This document shows, one piece after another, positions 52,911 through 63,349 of a DNA stretch of 64,000 nt. A program made the position numbers and the translations under genes. The notes beneath the pieces were generated by a model. The model saw only the letters and a program-made list of their open reading frames with translations. It was not told the origin of the DNA and searched no databases. Positions within the stretch are counted from its first letter, which is position 1. Each line of letters begins with the position of its first letter. The DNA comes from Balneolaceae bacterium (GTDB lineage: Bacteria > Bacteroidota > Rhodothermia > Balneolales > Balneolaceae), in NCBI GenBank assembly GCA_017795005.1, contig CP051242.1, positions 2,194,976 through 2,258,975 of the forward strand. Direction: 5' to 3'.

Positions 52911-54785
52911 TTATTCTGGTCTAGTAAATAACCAGGCTTCTGAATTTAAATCAGCTCTTACGGACCTTAAATATTCCACTGCATCATCAAAACGTGCAAA
53001 TCCCTGATAAGCAACAAAGTTAAATCGTGATTCAGGATGAAATAAAACACGGGTATCGAATCCCTGATCCATTAAACTTTTATGAAACCTATCTGCATTG
53101 TTTTGAACAATGAAAGAGCCTCCAATAATAAAGTACTTTAAATCTGATGATTCCTCATCTTCTACTTCTTCTCCATTTTGAGTTTGGTTTAAATATTCAT
53201 CCAAACTAAATGCTTTTGGAACAACAACCATCAGCTCAGGATTGTCTACAGGTAGACTTAATTCTTCAGCAAGTTGTTTTTGTTCTTCCGTTAATTCTTC
53301 CTCAGGTTGATCAGTTTGTTCGTCATCCTGAACCGGAATTTTCTCATCATTATCCTCTTCAGGGATTTGTACAGGAATCTCAGTTGTATCGGCAGTATTT
53401 TCAACCGGGATCTCTTGAACTTCTTCAGTTTTTTCTTCCACTGGTATAGTCGCATATGGGTTTTCGAAAACCTGATCCAAAGCCGTTCGATGGCTTTCTT
53501 TTGTCGATTCTAAAACCTGTCGGGTAGATTCATAGTTTCTCCGTGTTAATCGATCACGGAGCGATTCTTCCATTTTTGCCTGTACAATAATGATTAGTTC
53601 ATTCTCAACATAATCATTAGAGTTATACCCGAATAGATACCGTAATCCAAAAAACCATGGTGGAAGATCCTTTAGAATTGGAATTCCTCTCCTAACTTGG
53701 TTTTCTTCCGTTCTATACAAACCTGCAATTGATGTTGCTTCTCCATCAAGTAAAAAAGCCTGAGTTGTAGCTTCCTGTTTATTAATGATTGTACTAACCG
53801 CATCAGGCTGAGCAGAAGATCTCTCTACAGCTATATCAAGATGGATAAACGTGGTATCTCCATCATCGATTACCTGTGGAGTTACTGTAAGAATTGTACC
53901 TGTACTAAAAAATTGATCTGTAACATTTCCGGCAATATCTCTTTGTTTAATAGAGAAATCCTGACCTACTTGTATACGCCCTTCTTCCCCATCTACTACT
54001 TTAACAGACGGAGTGGCAATAACTTCTCCTAAGTTGTCCGCTTCAAAAGCACTAAAAAGTGCCTGAACACGGATTCCTGGACCTACCTCACCTAAGTTCA
54101 CTAATGCATTAAATACATTCTGTGAAACCCCGGAAGCTCCAAAAGAATTAACTGACACAAACTGATCATTGAAATTAACACCTTGAGGTACACCCTGATC
54201 AGGATCAATACCTTCTCCAGTAACGATTTCGTTAATATTTGCGGGAACATTATTAGTTAGTGTAGACCAATCAATCCCAATTTCTTGTAAGGCGCGCTTA
54301 TTACCTTCGAAGAAAGTTGCGTTAATTCTAACTTCCCGGGTTTGTAGGTTAAAATCAGACAAAGTAGCTGCATTTGGATTTGCTGCTGCGCCACTTTGTT
54401 CTTGAGTATTTTCAGACTCTAATTGTGATAGAGGAACAATTTCTACATAATCGTCAAATTCTCTAGTTCCCAGCGATTTAATTCTCAGAATAAATTTAAG
54501 AGCATCTTCCCAGTGCATTGCAGGTAAATTAACTCCTATTTCACCACTTGCTCCAGATTGATCTATAATGAATTTATTTCTGTACTCTTGAAGAAACTGA
54601 TTTATGACCTCCATAGCCTCTACATATGGAGTAGTTTTATCGAATGCAACGATCTCATCTGGATTAGTATACTCTCTGGGATACTCATCTTGTGCGAATG
54701 CGTTAATCTGAGTAAAAGAAACCCAAAATAACATCATAAAACCGCATAGGATTGTTTTATTAATACTCATTTTCGTTTTGTTCAT
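52911..54785 (-). CDS. Secretin (PilQ/GspD-like) with C-terminal SPOR domain
   Basis: A 624-residue outer-membrane secretin, the exit channel of type IV pili or type II secretion. A signal peptide (ending AFAQ) precedes an N-domain (YVEAMEVINQFLQEYRNKF), a second N-type region (FNLQTREVRINATFFEGNKRA) and the secretin core (VIATPSVKVVDGEEGRIQVG, RRGIPILKDLPPWF). After an acidic, Pro/Glu-rich linker (about 440-545), residues 546-624 form a SPOR domain (YFIIGGSFIVQNNADRF ... VAYQGFARFDDAVEYL ... AWLF). SPOR domains bind denuded peptidoglycan, so this secretin may be anchored to the cell wall. Last gene of the pilus operon; 1 nt apart from the convergent hydrolase gene. Confidence 0.85.
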   Translation of the reverse strand: MNKTKMSINKTILCGFMMLFWVSFTQINAFAQDEYPREYTNPDEIVAFDKTTPYVEAMEVINQFLQEYRNKFIIDQSGASGEIGVNLPAMHWEDALKFILRIKSLGTREFDDYVEIVPLSQLESENTQEQSGAAANPNAATLSDFNLQTREVRINATFFEGNKRALQEIGIDWSTLTNNVPANINEIVTGEGIDPDQGVPQGVNFNDQFVSVNSFGASGVSQNVFNALVNLGEVGPGIRVQALFSAFEADNLGEVIATPSVKVVDGEEGRIQVGQDFSIKQRDIAGNVTDQFFSTGTILTVTPQVIDDGDTTFIHLDIAVERSSAQPDAVSTIINKQEATTQAFLLDGEATSIAGLYRTEENQVRRGIPILKDLPPWFFGLRYLFGYNSNDYVENELIIIVQAKMEESLRDRLTRRNYESTRQVLESTKESHRTALDQVFENPYATIPVEEKTEEVQEIPVENTADTTEIPVQIPEEDNDEKIPVQDDEQTDQPEEELTEEQKQLAEELSLPVDNPELMVVVPKAFSLDEYLNQTQNGEEVEDEESSDLKYFIIGGSFIVQNNADRFHKSLMDQGFDTRVLFHPESRFNFVAYQGFARFDDAVEYLRSVRADLNSEAWLFTRPE

Positions 54786-55642
54786 CGAACTACCTCCAAG
54801 GTAACTACTTCTTGAATGCCGCCTTTATTTAAATTAAATGTAGCCGTTTTACTGTCGAAATCAATATTTGAAAGATAACCCAGATATACTCTGTCACCAA
54901 CTTTCAATGAAATTATCTTTCCGCCACTGTTCAAAAATATTCTATTCGAAGTCATACCAATTATTCGGGATGCTTCTGCATTAATTAATCCTTCAGTATT
55001 CGGTGGTAAAGAGTTTTGGATTAAAGGATAAAGTGGGTTATAAGAGGAAATACCGGGAAATTCGTTAATTCTAAATTCAGTACTTGTTGAATCAAATAAT
55101 TGCATTTTTTGATAGTAACTTTCCATGGCAAAAGAGAAATTAACAACATTTTCCTCATCATCTGACCTACCAGGTGATATTGTTACATCACTGATTTTAT
55201 TAAGAAGCTGACTATTCTCAATTTTATTAATGAAATCCACAAGTGATCCATAATCACCAAAACCTGAAATTGAAGAATTAATAATTCCATATTCAGCGTT
55301 AGGAGTTGAGTCAGAATAGACAAAATCAAAATAAATTTGATTCCCTCCACTGGAATTTACTTCCGTGATAAAATCATATATATCGTCAGGCTGGTTCGAT
55401 TGAAAAAGAGTTTTGTCGTAATCATTTATAATACGTACAGCCGTTTCATATCTACTATTTAATTCAGCAAAATCATTATTAATATTTTGTTTAGAATTTA
55501 GATCTTGTTGCTTTCTACCAATTTCATCCTGTAATGATGTAATTTTATCTTCCTGATAAAATTTAGCATAACCTAATCCTGCTCCAACTATTAAAAACAG
55601 CGTAACGAGGAGAATAATGGTATTTCGAATGGCGTATGACAT
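54782..55642 (-). CDS. PilO-like protein with PilP-like C-terminal domain
   Basis: A 286-residue inner-membrane alignment protein. An N-terminal transmembrane helix (IILLVTLFLIVGAGLGYA) is followed by a coiled-coil (ITSLQDEIGRKQQDLNSK) and a PilO-type ferredoxin-like domain (ISGFGDYGSLVDFINKIE). The C-terminal 70 residues (IIGMTSNRIFLNSGGKIISL, VYLGYLSNIDFD) resemble the PilP/GspC homology region that contacts the secretin. So PilO and PilP appear fused. The stop overlaps the secretin start by 4 nt. Confidence 0.7.
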   Translation of the reverse strand: MSYAIRNTIILLVTLFLIVGAGLGYAKFYQEDKITSLQDEIGRKQQDLNSKQNINNDFAELNSRYETAVRIINDYDKTLFQSNQPDDIYDFITEVNSSGGNQIYFDFVYSDSTPNAEYGIINSSISGFGDYGSLVDFINKIENSQLLNKISDVTISPGRSDDEENVVNFSFAMESYYQKMQLFDSTSTEFRINEFPGISSYNPLYPLIQNSLPPNTEGLINAEASRIIGMTSNRIFLNSGGKIISLKVGDRVYLGYLSNIDFDSKTATFNLNKGGIQEVVTLEVVR

Positions 55643-57402
55643 TAATTACCAGTTAGGTCCTCCAGCCCTTTTAAATTATCAGGAGTGTAAACTGACTCAT
55701 CAGGTACAATCTTACTAATCGAATAGGTAAATAAGTACACTTCTTGTTCCCGAATTTCAGATGTGGAAACATTAAGCAAAGTTGCTTCTGCAAAAAGCTC
55801 TGCTACTTCAGGAATTCTATTTCTATAACGAGCAATTCCCTGAATTTCAAGAGTATTAGGTTCATCTCCTACAGAAAAAGAAGTTAACCAAACCCCTCCG
55901 ATTTTATCAATTCCGTTATTCACTAATTGTAGATTCTTTGTCCAAGTAATTGAGTTCACAGATAATGTATTCAGTAACTCAAGTTTGTCCTGAATCTGAG
56001 AAAGTTCATTACTAATACGATTATAATTGTTCACAATCGGTGTAAAAGAATTAATCTGTGTATCCAGAATAGAGACTTCATTTTCTAAATTATTAATCTC
56101 TGAAATATTAGTGCGAATAAAATCATTAAGAATTGGAAATGAAGCCATTATCATTAATAAAAGAATAAATCCATGCCATTCCAGTTTAAAAATCTTTTGT
56201 CTATCCACTACATATTTTGGAACAAAAGAAATATCTGGAAGAAGTTTCTTTTCAAAACCTGTGGTCGACCAAGCTGTCCCTATCGCAGTTGTAAAAGATG
56301 CGATAGTCTCATTGGTATATTCTCCTGGATCCAAAAATTCATCGGAATAATTAAAATCAGAGACCTCAATATCAGGGAAACGATCCTGGAAGAAAGTAGT
56401 AGCTTCTTCTCCTAATGAATTATTACAAATAATAAGTCTATCCAGATTTGGAACTTCACCAGTATCAAGCTGAAAAAGTATTTTACTAAATACCGTATTT
56501 AAAAATTTTCTTGATCTCGTACCCTCTGTAATAATAGGGGAAACCAGCCAAAGATTTGTACCTCTCAAAAAGAGAACTCTACAATTTAAATCTGAAAACT
56601 GAAGCAGGCATGTAATACCACCATCATCAAGTTCATAATTTGCACGAACTAATCCTAAAAGAAGAGTTTCATCCGGTAACACTTCTTTAACTGTAAGTTT
56701 ACCTCGATAAAAAGAAAGTGTTTTATTGACTAGCTGAATTAATTCGGGCTCTTCATCTATAGAACATAATAGTAAAGCTCCATCATTTCTCACGCCATAA
56801 GAATAGTAATCCTCCCCTTTTGGAGATCCATGTAAAGACTCTAACCTATCATCAATAATAATTTGAAGATCTTTTTTCTTAACCTCGTTAAAATCTACAT
56901 CCTTTAAGATTTGGTAAATCGCCACACCAGCGGGGATGTTAAGACCTATATTTATTTTCTTTGGGTCAATAGAACTTAAGATATTATATAGAAGCATTTC
57001 ATTGCTGGCAGGTGTCTCGGTTTCATCAACCATATCAACATCTACATCAACAAGTTCATCTTCTGTTTGTTCTAACTCATCGAGTTCAAGGTCAATATCA
57101 TCTCCTAAATCCCCTAAAATATCTTCTTCTAACTGTAACTCATCTAATTCTTCGCTAATAGAATCTTCATCAAGGGAAGCTTCTAAATCAAGATCAAATA
57201 CAGATTCATCTGCTAATGGATCATCTAAATCTCCAAATATATCTTCGGTAGCTTCAAGTTCTTTTTCTTTTTCAATTGGAGATATTAACGTGTACTTATC
57301 AAGTCTTTGTAGAACTAGTTTTTTATTCTTTAGCTCAACTACAGCAATTTTTAAAGAATCGTTATCTAGCGCAATACCGATATGTTGTTTTCCAGATGCC
57401 AT
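55642..57402 (-). CDS. PilM-PilN fusion (GspL-like) with acidic insert
   Basis: A 586-residue inner-membrane platform protein. Residues 1-45 and about 132-400 form an actin-like PilM fold (HIGIALDNDSLKIAVVELK, INIGLNIPAGVAIYQ, FTTAIGTAWS). Residues about 46-130 are an insert of mostly Asp, Glu, Leu. A transmembrane helix follows (about 410-428), then a coiled-coil (ISEINNLENEVSILDTQI) and a PilN-type periplasmic domain (SITWTKNLQLV, VWLTSFSVGD). In most pilus systems PilM and PilN are separate. It overlaps the PilO-like gene by 1 nt. Confidence 0.78.
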   Translation of the reverse strand: MASGKQHIGIALDNDSLKIAVVELKNKKLVLQRLDKYTLISPIEKEKELEATEDIFGDLDDPLADESVFDLDLEASLDEDSISEELDELQLEEDILGDLGDDIDLELDELEQTEDELVDVDVDMVDETETPASNEMLLYNILSSIDPKKINIGLNIPAGVAIYQILKDVDFNEVKKKDLQIIIDDRLESLHGSPKGEDYYSYGVRNDGALLLCSIDEEPELIQLVNKTLSFYRGKLTVKEVLPDETLLLGLVRANYELDDGGITCLLQFSDLNCRVLFLRGTNLWLVSPIITEGTRSRKFLNTVFSKILFQLDTGEVPNLDRLIICNNSLGEEATTFFQDRFPDIEVSDFNYSDEFLDPGEYTNETIASFTTAIGTAWSTTGFEKKLLPDISFVPKYVVDRQKIFKLEWHGFILLLMIMASFPILNDFIRTNISEINNLENEVSILDTQINSFTPIVNNYNRISNELSQIQDKLELLNTLSVNSITWTKNLQLVNNGIDKIGGVWLTSFSVGDEPNTLEIQGIARYRNRIPEVAELFAEATLLNVSTSEIREQEVYLFTYSISKIVPDESVYTPDNLKGLEDLTGN

Positions 57403-57406
57403 ATAA

Positions 57407-58648
57407 TTAGTAAGCTACCTCACTAAAAAGCTGAAGCATTTTTGTTTTATTATTGGAATAATTTAAAGCGGATTCCTTTGAAATTTTTCCTTCATCATAC
57501 AATCTCTTTAGATCTTGTTCCATAGTATTCATTCCTTTTTCGCGCCCTTCCATCAACATTTGGTATATTTCACCAATATTATTGTTTCTTATTGCTGCGC
57601 GAACTGAGGAATTAGCTAACAAAACTTCTTTTGCAAGCACACGTTTTCCGTCAAGGCTTGGTACAAGTTTTTGACTAATTACACAGGTTAAAACATCCGC
57701 AAGACGAGCCCTAACCCTGTTTTGCTCTTCTGTAGGCATTTCACCAAGAATCCTTTCAATGCTTTCCATTGCTGAGGAAGTATGGAGTGTACCGAATGTT
57801 TTATGCCCTGAATCTGTGATTTCCAATGCGGTCATAATGGTTTCAGGATCTCTAAGCTCTCCAATTACTATTATATCCGGATCCTGTCTTAATGCCTGAA
57901 TCGCTCCATCTTTGAAAGAAAGTACATCGGTTCCTACTTCTCTATGTCTGACAACAGAACGAATAGGGTCGTGGATCAATTCTACGGGGGATGCAATTAT
58001 TACAATGTGAGAATCAACTGTCCTGTTATTTGCATCAATGATGGTATCCAGAGTTGATGATTTACCAGAGCCGGTAATTCCAGTAACCAGAGTCAGTCCG
58101 TATTTATAATATTTTAAACTTACAGCCTTTGCTACTTCTGCATTAACTCCCAATGATTTGAATGGTCTGATTGTATTATCAATCTTTCTCATATTTAACC
58201 CAAGATGATCAAGATCAAAGTACATATCAGCACGAAAACGTTGACTTTTATCTTTTGATAAATTTATGGAGTACGAGAAATCAAGATTTTTATCCTCTAA
58301 AAGTTTATCCCTTTGAGTACTAAGCAGTACATTATGAAGTAAAATATCCGTTTCCAGAAGAGGCAATTTTTTAAGCATTTTAAGAGGACTCTTATCTCCA
58401 AAGACTCTGTACCATACTTTTCCCGCACAACCGGGACCACCTAGATCAATATCAGAAGCATTGATCTTTATCATATTAACGAGAAAAGTGTCTAAGATTT
58501 CTTTAAGATCCACACGAAGGCTAATTTCGGCTTCTTCAATTAAATCACCTATTCTTTTATGCAAATCAATTCCACGCGCAGTTTTGGGAATGCGTTGGAT
58601 TAAAGGCTGGGTAAGCCCCGAAATTTTATCTATATCTATTGCCGCCAT
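57407..58648 (-). CDS. PilT/PilU-type pilus retraction ATPase
   Basis: A 413-residue type II/IV secretion ATPase. Walker A is TGITGSGKSSTLD, the Asp box DPDIIVIGELRDPETIMTALEITDSGH, His box GHKTFGTLHTSS, and Walker B-like region QALRQDPDIIVIGE. The C-terminal AIRNNNIGEI resembles the AIRNLIREGK retraction motif of PilT. Powers pilus disassembly, which implies dynamic pili rather than a pure secretion pseudopilus. It sits between the CNB-domain gene and the PilM-PilN fusion. Confidence 0.88.
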   Translation of the reverse strand: MAAIDIDKISGLTQPLIQRIPKTARGIDLHKRIGDLIEEAEISLRVDLKEILDTFLVNMIKINASDIDLGGPGCAGKVWYRVFGDKSPLKMLKKLPLLETDILLHNVLLSTQRDKLLEDKNLDFSYSINLSKDKSQRFRADMYFDLDHLGLNMRKIDNTIRPFKSLGVNAEVAKAVSLKYYKYGLTLVTGITGSGKSSTLDTIIDANNRTVDSHIVIIASPVELIHDPIRSVVRHREVGTDVLSFKDGAIQALRQDPDIIVIGELRDPETIMTALEITDSGHKTFGTLHTSSAMESIERILGEMPTEEQNRVRARLADVLTCVISQKLVPSLDGKRVLAKEVLLANSSVRAAIRNNNIGEIYQMLMEGREKGMNTMEQDLKRLYDEGKISKESALNYSNNKTKMLQLFSEVAY

Positions 58649-58742: not shown

Positions 58743-59246
58743 TTACCAATTAGAATCATTAAGTAATCGTTTTTTTAAGTTCAACAATTGAACGTTCATA
58801 TTACTAATTTTTCTTTGCTGTATTTCGATGATATTTTTTGTAAAAATGTTGAATAATTTTTCAGGTTTTTTTCTGAAAAAATTTAATGCTTCATAACGTT
58901 CATATCGAAGCAATACACAATCTCCTTCAGCAGTTACCTTAGCCATCCTATTGTTTTTACTAAACAGAAAGGCTTCACCTAAAAAATTTCCATCCGATAA
59001 GGTAGCTAATTGTATGTTATCTTTCCAAATAGCCACCTTTCCTTCGGCAACCAGATATGCAGAATTAACATATTCTGACTCGTTTAATATAATATCGTCA
59101 GATTGAAAACGCTCTTCTAAGCCTAGTTCTAAAAACTCAAGTACATCCTCATAATGGAAATTCTTCAATAAAAGAGGCGGCTCTTTTAAAAATTTTTTGA
59201 TGTGATCTGACATTAGATCACCGGAAGATTCATTTTCTGTACTCAT
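58743..59246 (-). CDS. Cyclic-nucleotide-binding domain protein without DNA-binding domain
   Basis: About 167 residues from ATG 59246 (GAGGT 8-12 nt upstream; an in-frame TTG at 59258 is rejected). The CNB beta-roll is visible: EERFQSDDIILNESEYVNSAYLV, VAEGKVAIW, SDGNFLGEAFLFSKNNRMAKVTAEGDCVLLRY. The phosphate-binding cassette (GEAFLFSKNNRMAKV) keeps Gly-Glu but the Arg is displaced compared with Crp. The C-terminus is a helical tail without a winged helix. It lies between pilB and pilT and may regulate the motors in response to a nucleotide. Confidence 0.78.
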   Translation of the reverse strand: MSTENESSGDLMSDHIKKFLKEPPLLLKNFHYEDVLEFLELGLEERFQSDDIILNESEYVNSAYLVAEGKVAIWKDNIQLATLSDGNFLGEAFLFSKNNRMAKVTAEGDCVLLRYERYEALNFFRKKPEKLFNIFTKNIIEIQQRKISNMNVQLLNLKKRLLNDSNW

Positions 59247-59320
59247 ATACAACCTCAATATTTCCTAAAGCTATTAAATATGGTTTAAAATCATGATTAA
59301 ATACAACTATTATGAAGATT

Positions 59321-61096
59321 CTAATCTTCTATTGTTGCGGCTATTATTTCTTCTATTGTCGTTATTCCTTCTTTAATGCGCTCCCTTCCTGAACCTCTTA
59401 GGGTTAGCATTCCTTGGCTTATGGCCAATTTTTTTATTGCACCTTCATCAATATCATCACCAGCATCAAGAATTAATTCTTTCAACTCTTTTGAGAAGTA
59501 TAAAGCTTCATGTATTGCTGATCTTCCTTTAAATCCGGTTTCCCCACACTTTTCACATCCAACAGCTTTATAAAAAGTGGTTGTTTCAATTTCCTCTTCT
59601 GTAAATCCAATACCTTTAGCAACTTCGGGGTGAGGTTGAAATTCTTCTTTACACTCTTTGCATAATCTTCTTATTAAACGTTGTGCCATTACAAGGTTTA
59701 CTGCGTTTGCGATCAAAAAAGGCTCGATTCCCATTTTAAATAAACGAGAAACAGCACTGGGAGCATCGTTGGTATGCAAAGTAGAAAAGGTAAGGTGACC
59801 AGTATTCGCCAGTTTGATTGCAACACTAGCCGTTTTTAAATCCCTCATTTCACCTACTAATACAATATCCGGATCATGCCTTAGAATCCCCCTAATACTT
59901 TGATCGAAAGACATAGATGCACTTATCTTTAATTGCCTCGCTCCTTCGATAATATATTCTACCGGTTCCTCAATGGTAAGAACATTTTTCGTAGGGTCAA
60001 TAACCGAATACAGAGCAGCAACAAGCGTAGTTGATTTTCCACTTCCCGTTGGACCAGTGATAATTACAATACCGGAAGGTTGAGTAATAGATTTAACAAA
60101 ACTATCTTTTGCATTTTTTTGAAGTCCCAGTAAATCTAAATCCCGAATTACTTTTCTGTCATCAAGAATTCGAATAACGATTGATTCAAATTTTCTATCA
60201 TACTGATTTCCTACTATAGGCATTATAGATACACGATATCGGATGTTATATCCATCAATTTGTCGCTGTATAAATCCATCCTGAGAGGAATCTCTTTCAA
60301 AACGGTCAACATTTCTTGTTTTATCTTTTATTACAGCAGAAATCGCTTCTGGTTTAACGTTATTTTGTTGATACCATAATTGAAGCTTACCATCAATCCT
60401 GAATCTGATATCAGTTGCAGCAGGTCCACTGGGTATTATATGCAAATCACTAACCCCTTGACGAACAGATTCAACCAACATACCCTCAACCAATGAATTG
60501 AGCATACTTTGATTAATTTCTGCATCAATTTCTTCTTCATTTACTTCCTCTTCACCCTGATCAATCTGAGTTTCTTCATAATCAATCTCTTCTAGGAGAT
60601 CCAGGAACTCATTCTTTTGTTCATATACTTTTGAAAGAATTTGATCAACCAATTCATAATTACAATAAACCAATTCAGTTTGTTTGAAAGTAAGTCGGTT
60701 TATTATGGTTTGAATATTTGGATCTGAAGGGTCTGCTGCTGCAATTGTTAAAGCTCCATTCGTTCTTTGAAAGGGTACAGCTTTATGATGGACTAAATCA
60801 TCAATTATATCTTCAGGAAGCTCTTCAACATTATTTTTTATATGGTCTATGATATCGTCAGGAGCAACATCAGTATCAGGAAGTACCTCTCGGAAAGCAT
60901 ATACTTTTGAGATTTCTCTCATTATTATATGCCTGTTTAGACCTATTTCCTGATAAAGGATTTGACCTAAACGACGGGAACTACTTTCGGGCTCTTCTTC
61001 CAGAATTGCGAGCGCTTCCTGTAATTGTTCATCAGTGACAACTCCTTTGCTTACAAGGATATCTCCAATGTGTCTCCTGATGTTAATTTTTCCCAT
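59321..61096 (-). CDS. pilB: PilB/GspE-type assembly ATPase
   Basis: A 591-residue assembly motor. The N-terminal MshEN/GspE-N region starts IGDILVSKGVVTDEQLQEAL, with a second domain (VPFQRTNGALTIAAADPSDPN). The ATPase core: SDLHIIPSG, Walker A ITGPTGSGKSTTL, DPDIVLVGEMRDLKTASVAIKLANTGHLTFSTLHTNDA. The zinc-binding tetracysteine motif is CKECKEEF ... CEKCGETG. An acidic insert (EEEVNEEEIDAEI) precedes the core. It drives pilin polymerisation through PilC. Confidence 0.93.
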   Translation of the reverse strand: MGKINIRRHIGDILVSKGVVTDEQLQEALAILEEEPESSSRRLGQILYQEIGLNRHIIMREISKVYAFREVLPDTDVAPDDIIDHIKNNVEELPEDIIDDLVHHKAVPFQRTNGALTIAAADPSDPNIQTIINRLTFKQTELVYCNYELVDQILSKVYEQKNEFLDLLEEIDYEETQIDQGEEEVNEEEIDAEINQSMLNSLVEGMLVESVRQGVSDLHIIPSGPAATDIRFRIDGKLQLWYQQNNVKPEAISAVIKDKTRNVDRFERDSSQDGFIQRQIDGYNIRYRVSIMPIVGNQYDRKFESIVIRILDDRKVIRDLDLLGLQKNAKDSFVKSITQPSGIVIITGPTGSGKSTTLVAALYSVIDPTKNVLTIEEPVEYIIEGARQLKISASMSFDQSIRGILRHDPDIVLVGEMRDLKTASVAIKLANTGHLTFSTLHTNDAPSAVSRLFKMGIEPFLIANAVNLVMAQRLIRRLCKECKEEFQPHPEVAKGIGFTEEEIETTTFYKAVGCEKCGETGFKGRSAIHEALYFSKELKELILDAGDDIDEGAIKKLAISQGMLTLRGSGRERIKEGITTIEEIIAATIED

Positions 61097-61103
61097 GCTA
61101 TAC

Positions 61104-62438
61104 TTACTGCGATGTTGGGTTTATGGTAGCTGATTCGGATGATACAACTGTTATCCCAATCAACGAAACCATAATAAATAAATTTATGAACAAATTTATA
61201 GTATCAATCACAGATTGCATTTTATAAGTAGTTTGAATCTCATAATACTCTGCTAGTTGCTTAGCATTTTCTCTCAGTGCACCAGACTCAGCCCCTAACT
61301 TAAACCTACTTAAAGCGGTATGAGGGAAAACACCAGTTGCTTCCAATGACTCAATTAGACCAGCACCATCCTTCAACATCTTTTTAATTGCTACTTCTTT
61401 GATCTGTTTTTCTATGTATTTATTTCTACATGCTTCAGCAGCTACCTTAATTACCTCAATATTTTGCCCAGATCCACTATAAAGGGTATAAAAAACTCTC
61501 GAAAAAATTTCGATACTTGTTTTATGGAGTAAGTCTCCCATAACCGGCAGATGAATGATATACTTATCAATTATTAGCTTACCCTTCGACGATTTGGCGA
61601 AGAAAATAAATCCTACAATAGGAGCTAGAAAACCCAATAAAATGTACACCCAATTATCTTCTAACCAATAACTTAAATCCAATGTGGCCTGTGTCATTGG
61701 AGGAAGTTGAATATCCATTTCTACAAAAAGTTCAGCGGTAGCAGGAAAAATATATCCTACATAAAAAAGAATTACCCCGATAACCGCCAATACAGTTACC
61801 GCGGGCATCATTAATGATCTTCTCAGATTTTTTTTAAACTCAGCATCTCGTTCAAGAAATTTCGCCGTACTATCAAATACAAGGGACATATTACCAGAAG
61901 TGGAGGCTACACTTAACATGTAGGCAGCAAACTTTCCAAAAATAGGCTCGTGCTTTCCATATACCTGAGTACCTTCTTTACCGTCTTTGAGGTCTTTTTG
62001 AATTTCTTTAATTACCTCTTTCATTCTTTTGTTGGTAGAATCCTCAATTAGAAGGTTTAGAATTTCATCAAAGGTTAGTTGTTGCCGTAATAAATCAGCA
62101 CACATTCTAATAAATGAAACGACTTCATCCATGGGGACTCCACCTTTAAAATCGAACCATTTTTTGTTGATACTAACAACCTGATATCCAAGCTTTACAA
62201 GTGCTCTTTCTAACTCTTCTTTATTGTAAGCCTCTTGCTCTCCATTAACCGGTTTTTTTCCTGCTCTTTTAACTTTATATAAATAAACAGATTTCTGGTC
62301 TATAGATTGAACTTTTAAACCATTACTTTTTGATAGTCTGTCTACTTTATTCTGAGCTTCTTTTTTATTATCAGCTTCAAATTCGGTTTGAACTGTTTTT
62401 CCAGCTTTAGATACTGCTTTTAATCGAAACTGAGCCAT
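61104..62438 (-). CDS. pilC: PilC/GspF-type inner-membrane platform protein
   Basis: A 444-residue protein. Two tandem N-terminal small modules of the AxFxYKA..G type are seen (FRLKAVSKAGKTVQTEFEAD and YLYKVKRAGKKPVNGEQEA, each followed by a helix and a K/QV(Q/S)I strand), then two T2SSF domains: MDEVVSFIRMCADLLRQQLTF and the second starting IEIFSRVFYTLYSGSGQNIE. Transmembrane helices occur at about 205-230, 250-275 and at the C-terminus. It couples the assembly ATPase to growing pilus. It starts 27 nt after the second pilin gene and ends 7 nt before pilB. Confidence 0.9.
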   Translation of the reverse strand: MAQFRLKAVSKAGKTVQTEFEADNKKEAQNKVDRLSKSNGLKVQSIDQKSVYLYKVKRAGKKPVNGEQEAYNKEELERALVKLGYQVVSINKKWFDFKGGVPMDEVVSFIRMCADLLRQQLTFDEILNLLIEDSTNKRMKEVIKEIQKDLKDGKEGTQVYGKHEPIFGKFAAYMLSVASTSGNMSLVFDSTAKFLERDAEFKKNLRRSLMMPAVTVLAVIGVILFYVGYIFPATAELFVEMDIQLPPMTQATLDLSYWLEDNWVYILLGFLAPIVGFIFFAKSSKGKLIIDKYIIHLPVMGDLLHKTSIEIFSRVFYTLYSGSGQNIEVIKVAAEACRNKYIEKQIKEVAIKKMLKDGAGLIESLEATGVFPHTALSRFKLGAESGALRENAKQLAEYYEIQTTYKMQSVIDTINLFINLFIMVSLIGITVVSSESATINPTSQ

Positions 62439-62465: not shown

Positions 62466-62831
62466 TTATTCCCATTCAACTCGATTACTATAAACAACTA
62501 ATACGAGATCGTCAAGATCACTTTTGGGGCTGGCAGTGATCTTAAAATATTCAACAGCTCGTTCAGAAATTTCGAATGTACTAACAACAGAAGCAGTATC
62601 AAGTTGAATATCAACCATTGAAATTGAAGCAAAAGATTTTCCTCCGCCACCCAAGGCAGTAGGCTTTCCATAATAAAGTTGACCAAATGAAGCTGCTTCT
62701 AAAACTTCTTGTCGAATAATGTCTTTGTATGACTCATCTCTGAAATTTTCAAAGAGAACAAGCCCAACAATGGATGAAATACCAACAATTATCGACACTA
62801 ACACAATAAGAAGTAGTTGTTGTTGTCCCAT
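62466..62831 (-). CDS. MGQQQ-type pilin-like protein 2
   Basis: A 121-residue protein sharing the first eight residues MGQQQLLL with the neighbouring larger pilin, followed by a hydrophobic helix (IVLVSIIVGISSIVGLVLF) and helix continuation with acidic and basic residues. The globular part is short; the shared motif YYGKPTALGGGGKSFASI marks it as a paralogue. No canonical prepilin leader with basic residues and no Glu at position +5 after Gly are present. It is probably a minor pilin, expressed at lower level because a hairpin separates it from pilin 1. Confidence 0.75.
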   Translation of the reverse strand: MGQQQLLLIVLVSIIVGISSIVGLVLFENFRDESYKDIIRQEVLEAASFGQLYYGKPTALGGGGKSFASISMVDIQLDTASVVSTFEISERAVEYFKITASPKSDLDDLVLVVYSNRVEWE

Positions 62832-62849
62832 CTTGAAATAATTTTAAAT

Positions 62850-62882
62850 AAAAAAAAAGCTTCCCATTAAACTGGGAAGCTT
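62850..62882 (-). terminator. Terminator/attenuator hairpin between the two pilin genes
   Basis: On the minus strand AAGCTTCCCA / TGGGAAGCTT form a 10-bp perfect stem with a 6 nt loop, followed by a run of T. It lies 20 nt after the stop of pilin 1 and 19 nt before pilin 2, so it likely makes pilin 1 more abundant than the downstream assembly genes. Confidence 0.88.
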
Positions 62883-62902
62883 AAGTTTCTTAGATAATAA
62901 GA

Positions 62903-63349
62903 TTAGTTATTATCTGTGAAAGAAGTACTACCTGGGGTAATATCAGCAGCAATCGTAGTTGCACCTAAAGTAGCAGTAGAAGTAAGAGATACGTCTCCTA
63001 CAATACGGCTAGCTGGGTGAGCAGTAACTGTAAATTGTCCTGCAGCCTGACCACTAATTACATAACGTCCGTTTGCATTAAATGCGTTTGTACCAGCAGC
63101 ATCAATAGTATCAGCTGCGAAAGCAATATTATTGAAAGTAATTGCTGCAAAGCTATTACCACCACCACCTAACATAGAAGGCTTGATGTAGTACCCTTGT
63201 GCAGATGCAGCAATAGAAGCGATATCGTTTCTTACTGCGTCCAAGTTAGCAGAGTCTGCAGAACTTGAAAAAGTATTGATAGCAACTACAGTTGCAATAC
63301 CAACGATGATTGTTACTAGAATTACGAGAAGTAATTGTTGTTGACCCAT
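62903..63349 (-). CDS. MGQQQ-type major pilin-like protein 1
   Basis: A 148-residue protein. The N-terminus MGQQQLLLVILVTIIVGIATVVAINTF is a single long hydrophobic helix (given here in parts: MGQQQLLLVILVT and IIVGIATVVAINTF), like a type IV pilin but with only two residues before any Gly cleavage point and without Glu at +5. The globular part contains YYIKPSMLGGGGNSFAAI and a Ser/Thr/Ala-rich C-terminal tail (LTSTATLGATTIAADI). It is the first gene of the operon, preceded by AGGAGA at a normal distance. Probably the major fibre subunit. Confidence 0.78.
   Translation of the reverse strand: MGQQQLLLVILVTIIVGIATVVAINTFSSSADSANLDAVRNDIASIAASAQGYYIKPSMLGGGGNSFAAITFNNIAFAADTIDAAGTNAFNANGRYVISGQAAGQFTVTAHPASRIVGDVSLTSTATLGATTIAADITPGSTSFTDNN

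Follow-up and report, generated by a model that had tools for sequence, protein, structure and literature searches.

Type IV filaments share, as general features, a class III signal peptide on their subunits and a dedicated prepilin peptidase, and cleavage of the leader by this enzyme is treated as a universal step for them (PMC4471445, PMC10191384). Two known groups resemble the system described here in part. MSHA loci likewise contain no prepilin peptidase gene, but the T2SS, T4aP or Tad systems of MSHA genomes encode one (PMC6668835), whereas most genomes with the present family have no A24 peptidase anywhere and its pilins carry no leader. Archaeal pilins often lack Glu5 and follow relaxed leader rules, yet they retain class III signal peptides that are cut by an archaeal prepilin peptidase (PMC4471445). 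The closest comparison is with type IVa pili, which also combine a platform, extension and retraction ATPases, PilN/PilO-like proteins and a secretin in one operon, and whose pilin alpha-1 helix, as seen in Geobacter PilA, is similar. Unlike them, our system has no leader, cleavage site, Glu5 or PilD, and its pilins carry a YYxKPxxLGGGGxSF motif.

The system was found in a 64,000-nucleotide stretch of a Balneolaceae bacterium genome (hereafter the window), in two neighbouring minus-strand open reading frames (62466-62831 and 62903-63349) whose products both begin with MGQQQLLL. In our judgement these are probably leaderless type IV pilins, in which the start codon replaces leader cleavage and which are assembled in a type IVa-like manner without PilD. 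The basis for this reading is a start directly before the alpha-1 helix, an upstream sequence in which no leader is possible, a pilus machine in the same operon and a genome in which no A24 was detected. If it is true, bacterial type IV filaments can do without prepilin peptidase, N-methylation and Glu5, all three regarded as general among them, and neither cleavage nor methylation nor Glu5 is fundamental to the type IV mechanism; such pilins would be a natural test of what the pilin N-terminus does when a subunit is pulled out of the membrane. The description of pilus gene sets in these bacteria as incomplete would then have an explanation, and so would the failure of standard pilin searches to pick up the subunits, neither of which matches Pfam at E<=1, N_methyl (PF07963) included, or any NCBIfam model near its cut-off. 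Our search of open-licence papers for MGQQQ or GQQQLL found no publication.

Two probable pilin genes and their operon

The larger gene (62903..63349, minus strand, 148 aa; start MGQQQLLLVILV, motif YYIKPSMLGGGGNSF) likely encodes the major pilin, here pilin 1, and is closely preceded by an AGGAG ribosome-binding site. The smaller one (62466..62831, minus strand, 121 aa) likely encodes a second or minor pilin of the same family, pilin 2. In-frame stops lie four codons (NYFK) and three codons (EII) 5' of the Met in the two genes, and therefore a leader cannot be encoded; reading back to these stops revealed no hydrophilic leader before the hydrophobic stretch of either protein. The first-pass annotation had described both proteins as beginning MGQQQLLL and passing at once into the helix, with no room for a leader, no Glu5 and a shared YY.KP..LGGGG.SF motif. 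This description holds on every point: both frames are present, the stops exclude a longer in-frame start with a classical leader, Leu occupies the aligned Glu5 site in ungapped and gapped alignments alike, and the motif recurs throughout the family. Its further claim of a two-residue MG leader does not, since only Met-Gly is in evidence and nothing shows a cut after Gly2.

The pilins open a minus-strand operon that runs from 63349 down to 52911, in which pilin 1, pilin 2, PilC and PilB are followed by a cyclic-nucleotide-binding-domain protein, a PilT-like ATPase, PilN-like and PilO-like proteins and a PilQ-type secretin. The PilC/GspF inner-membrane platform (61104..62438; Pfam T2SSF 1.3e-28, NCBIfam GspF 6e-48 and PilC 2e-43) and the PilB extension ATPase with an MshEN domain (59321..61096; Pfam T2SSE 1.7e-96 and MshEN 3.6e-8, TIGR02538 PilB 1.3e-128) are clear matches, as is the secretin (52911..54785; Pfam Secretin 4.2e-29, TIGR02515 PilQ 7e-35). 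The cyclic-nucleotide-binding-domain protein (58743..59258) was assigned by Pfam cNMP_binding (2.3e-12) and synteny, and the PilT-like retraction ATPase (57407..58648) by TIGR01420 PilT/PilU (6.8e-92), with a score of 308.3 bits where the cut-off is 319.1. The PilN-like protein (55642..57402) matches Pfam PilN below the cut-off (E=0.001) and was assigned with the help of its position and length; it is probably a PilM-PilN fusion, with a PilM part that Pfam does not recognise. The PilO-like protein (54782..55642; Pfam PilO E=0.0036, below cut-off) bears a C-terminal extension that, by eye, is possibly PilP-like; searched separately, this piece matched no domain and PilP was not recognised, and separate pieces of PilQ, PilO, PilC and PilM likewise gave no clear domain. 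PilB, PilC, the secretin and a PilT-like ATPase scoring just under its cut-off stand in one operon, as in a type IVa pilus machine. The full PilB/C/M/N/O/Q set reported in the first-pass annotation is nearly borne out, with PilM unrecognised by Pfam and PilN and PilO weak, and the PilT-like and cyclic-nucleotide-domain proteins are present in addition to it.

The last 80 residues of the secretin (52911-54785) look weakly SPOR-like, with E=0.18, below the Pfam cut-off, which would be an odd site for a peptidoglycan-binding domain. Residues 1-100 of PilC contain, by eye, two copies of a short beta-rich motif that is single in GspF/PilC proteins; in NCBIfam, the GspF model aligned from residue 4 and the PilC model from residue 51. 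A cyclic-nucleotide-binding-domain gene stands between PilB and the PilT-like gene in many Balneolota loci and is missing from most other phyla, and the protein in the window (58743-59258) may regulate the pilus.

Predicted fold and relation to classical pilins

AlphaFold models built with the family alignment have high confidence for pilin 1 (pLDDT 93.3; helix 2-55 and five strands) and pilin 2 (pLDDT 92.6; helix 2-55 and four strands), and both proteins are predicted to have the lollipop shape of a pilin, with an N-terminal helix of about 50 residues and a beta-sheet head. In Foldseek searches of the PDB, PilV, PilE and PilA4 came first or nearly so, with N. meningitidis PilV as the best match for pilin 2 (probability 0.98), but no E-value was significant (0.083 at best). 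Additionally, the family profile matched Geobacter PilA (9egp) at E=6.6e-4. From residue 9 on the alignment is free of gaps, and it sets Gly17 of the family against Gly14 of mature PilA, Asn25 against Pro22 and Leu8 against Glu5; we took these pairings from the alignment as printed, which had to be prolonged by one residue towards the N-terminus for the last of them. A gapped profile alignment with the classical pilins of sister genomes instead places Leu6 opposite Glu5. The register is thus uncertain by two residues, and in both registers the acid at the Glu5 site is replaced by Leu. Given a predicted shape that is pilin-like and tests for a class III signal peptide that failed, the machine would be described as type IVa-like and its pilins as a variant.

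An alternative is that the two products are not subunits of a pilus fibre but membrane proteins belonging to the base of the pilus or to a secretion pseudopilus. Linkage alone is no proof of export, classical Glu5 mutants form no homopolymers (PMC4471445) and some copies of the gene stand apart from the machine. We nevertheless regard this as quite improbable in view of the pilin-like predicted fold, the PilT-like retraction ATPase and PilQ-type secretin in the operon, and the failure of both N_methyl and the family profile to reveal any other pilin candidate in this genome. The earlier view of the two proteins as probable subunits of the fibre in a separate class of pilus fits the predicted structures, the PilA profile match and the linkage to the machine in distant lineages.

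The first-pass annotation had also asked whether MGQQQ proteins always adjoin PilB or PilC. One of the two lies near the MGQQQ gene in 55 of 79 loci, and many of the remainder are short contigs; some solo genes are nevertheless real and stand apart from pilus genes, so the linkage is common and not invariable. No pilus machine gene was recognised near the MGQQQ gene in six loci (L041, L068, L069 near 10001, L017, L024 and L038). In three Aliifodinibius loci, the MGQQQ gene adjoins an apparent DEAD-box helicase gene.

Conservation of the N-terminus across the family

When one genome of each species was scanned, at least 373 relatives came up, and 80 of the loci were retained. Members are numerous in Balneolota/Rhodothermia and in Ignavibacteria, and also occur in Kryptonia, KSB1, Calditrichota, Marinimicrobia and others. 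Among the 114 members of the kept loci, residue 2 is Gly in 111, Ala in two and Ser in one, positions 3-5 are Gln in nearly all, and the start falls at the same place; the upstream stop lies a median of 4 residues from the start in the 113 members with a readable upstream region. A second sample of 98 members, overlapping the first, and a third of 65, drawn with a profile lacking the first nine residues, agree with it: stop-to-start medians are 3-4 over all three, and some members have a stop directly before the ATG. The three samples share some genomes and genes and are therefore not independent. No member with a longer leader was found in any of them, the one sampled independently of the N-terminus included. 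Furthermore, neither 37 family-negative genomes nor the best hits from 296 genomes of the phylum yielded a leadered homologue to this shortened profile; the run on the former gave three weak matches, at E 0.03-0.1, which fell in frames 558-1051 aa long.

These data also bear on the idea that the start has been misplaced and that a classical leader lies upstream. The upstream stops at a median of 3-4, together with an SD-like sequence 5' of 60 of 112 family starts as compared with 23 of 336 control windows inside genes, rule this out with near certainty. The few members with Val or Leu at the start position also argue against it, as they keep a Val- or Leu-coded start at the same position (GTG in the one case that was read, presumably TTG for Leu). 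Residues 1-8 hardly vary, whereas the codons behind them do so freely (GGA in 48 and GGT in 42 for Gly, all six for Leu), and the constraint therefore acts on the protein; a DNA-level effect is ruled out by this codon variety. Such invariance suggests that GQQQ contacts the machine or neighbouring subunits.

The family also appears in a MAG labelled Patescibacteria (L067), in a locus with no recognised pilus machine gene, which is either a bin error or a gene transfer.

Prepilin peptidase and the processing of the N-terminus

The genome that contains the window consists of one contig, is 99.5% complete and gave no match to the A24 prepilin peptidase family (PF01478). The model did match in 12 of the 14 known genomes that served as controls, and two other members of the genus also gave A24 hits with it. 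A second profile, made from eight A24 proteins of further Rhodothermia genomes and run without a positive control, found none in this genome either; within the MGQQQ loci no A24 homologue turned up even at E values as high as 10. The search for pilD proposed with the first-pass annotation thus came out negative by PF01478, so that the option of no such processing, which it had left open beside processing by a prepilin peptidase, is now favoured for this organism.

The same pattern extends to its relatives. Across 147 Rhodothermia genomes of at least 90% completeness, A24 is present in 13, the MGQQQ family in 106 and both in 11, which leaves 95 of the 106 family-positive genomes without A24. 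In the class to which an Ignavibacteria locus belongs, A24 occurs in 7 of 119 genomes, all of them with the family, which is present in 67; 60 of the 67 are without A24. Together this makes 155 of 173 family-positive genomes without the peptidase, a count over related genomes that are not independent. Cultured relatives such as Gracilimonas mengyeensis and Fodinibius species likewise carry the family, with no A24 gene detected. N_methyl pilins, on the other hand, occur in 14 of the 147 Rhodothermia genomes, 12 of the 13 with A24 among them; A24 thus goes with classical pilins (Fisher p about 9e-15) and not with the MGQQQ family (p=0.52). Several A24-positive Rhodothermia encode a basic-leader pilin with a GFSLTELL or GFTLPELL core near the A24 gene, and the patchy distribution of A24 and classical pilins in this class suggests gain or loss. 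Loci of this kind (L121-L128 and L130) in several cases also hold a GspE-like ATPase or a secretin-like gene. One genome (G056) has N_methyl pilins and no A24 match in an assembly that is 98% complete, which reflects either a missing contig or a real exception. Outside Balneolota, A24 was found in the same genome in 12 of 24 cases (KSB1, Calditrichota, Marinimicrobia and some Bacteroidetes MAGs); it is common in KSB1, Calditrichota and Marinimicrobia, so pilin processing may occur there.

It could still be argued that the proteins are prepilins with a two-residue leader, cut between Gly2 and Gln3 by an unrecognised peptidase, after which the new N-terminal Gln may become pyroglutamate. Position 2 is Gly, rarely Ala, as would be expected of a prepilin peptidase site, given that leaders always end in Gly or Ala according to one review (PMC10191384), and both shortened leaders in some systems and a cyclised N-terminus in an archaeal pilin have been described (PMC4471445). 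However, known leaders are hydrophilic and 6-26 residues long (PMC4471445), one family member has Ser2, and the cleavage-site Gly does not fall at Gly2 in either alignment to classical pilins. The lack of A24 in this genome, as in the great majority of family-positive ones, and a pilus operon in the window in which every gene could be assigned argue against a cut after Gly2 by another enzyme, and we consider such processing unlikely.

A leaderless pilin would follow a simpler route. Methionine aminopeptidase accepts Met before Gly, Ala or Ser. Position 2 consequently suits this enzyme as well as the -1 site of a prepilin peptidase and is not decisive. The pilin would be inserted by Sec/SRP in an N-in/C-out orientation, and methionine aminopeptidase would probably remove the Met, leaving a Gly-Gln-Gln-Gln-Leu N-terminus on the cytoplasmic side. 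We propose that translation itself sets the N-terminus, so that neither leader cleavage nor methylation by PilD would be needed, and that QQQ may take over the role in assembly that the free N-terminus and Glu5 have in classical pilins. PilC and PilB would then extract the subunits and polymerise them through the secretin, and the PilT-like ATPase would retract the fibre. With somewhat less assurance, we think that Rhodothermia and Ignavibacteria (Bacteroidota broadly defined) and neighbouring phyla are likely to hold a major branch of leaderless pilins, whose N-terminus is made by start codon and methionine aminopeptidase, with no prepilin peptidase, N-methylation or Glu5.

A published case may belong here. 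In the genome of Melioribacter roseus, pilT, pilQ, pilB and pilC were found with neither pilA nor pilD, and the authors considered the set probably incomplete (PMC3534657); the MGQQQ family may explain why the two genes were not found. A Melioribacteraceae locus in our set (L082) has two MGQQQ pilins beside the machine, with an A24 gene elsewhere in that genome. Finally, the second pilin of four loci begins with MANKELLL or MANKEIII and not MGQQQLLL, so that Glu is residue 5 from the Met (from 2010 onward in L101 and 1968 onward in L104, as offsets on the strand of the family gene, 10520-10882 in L013 and 10536-10904 in L023).
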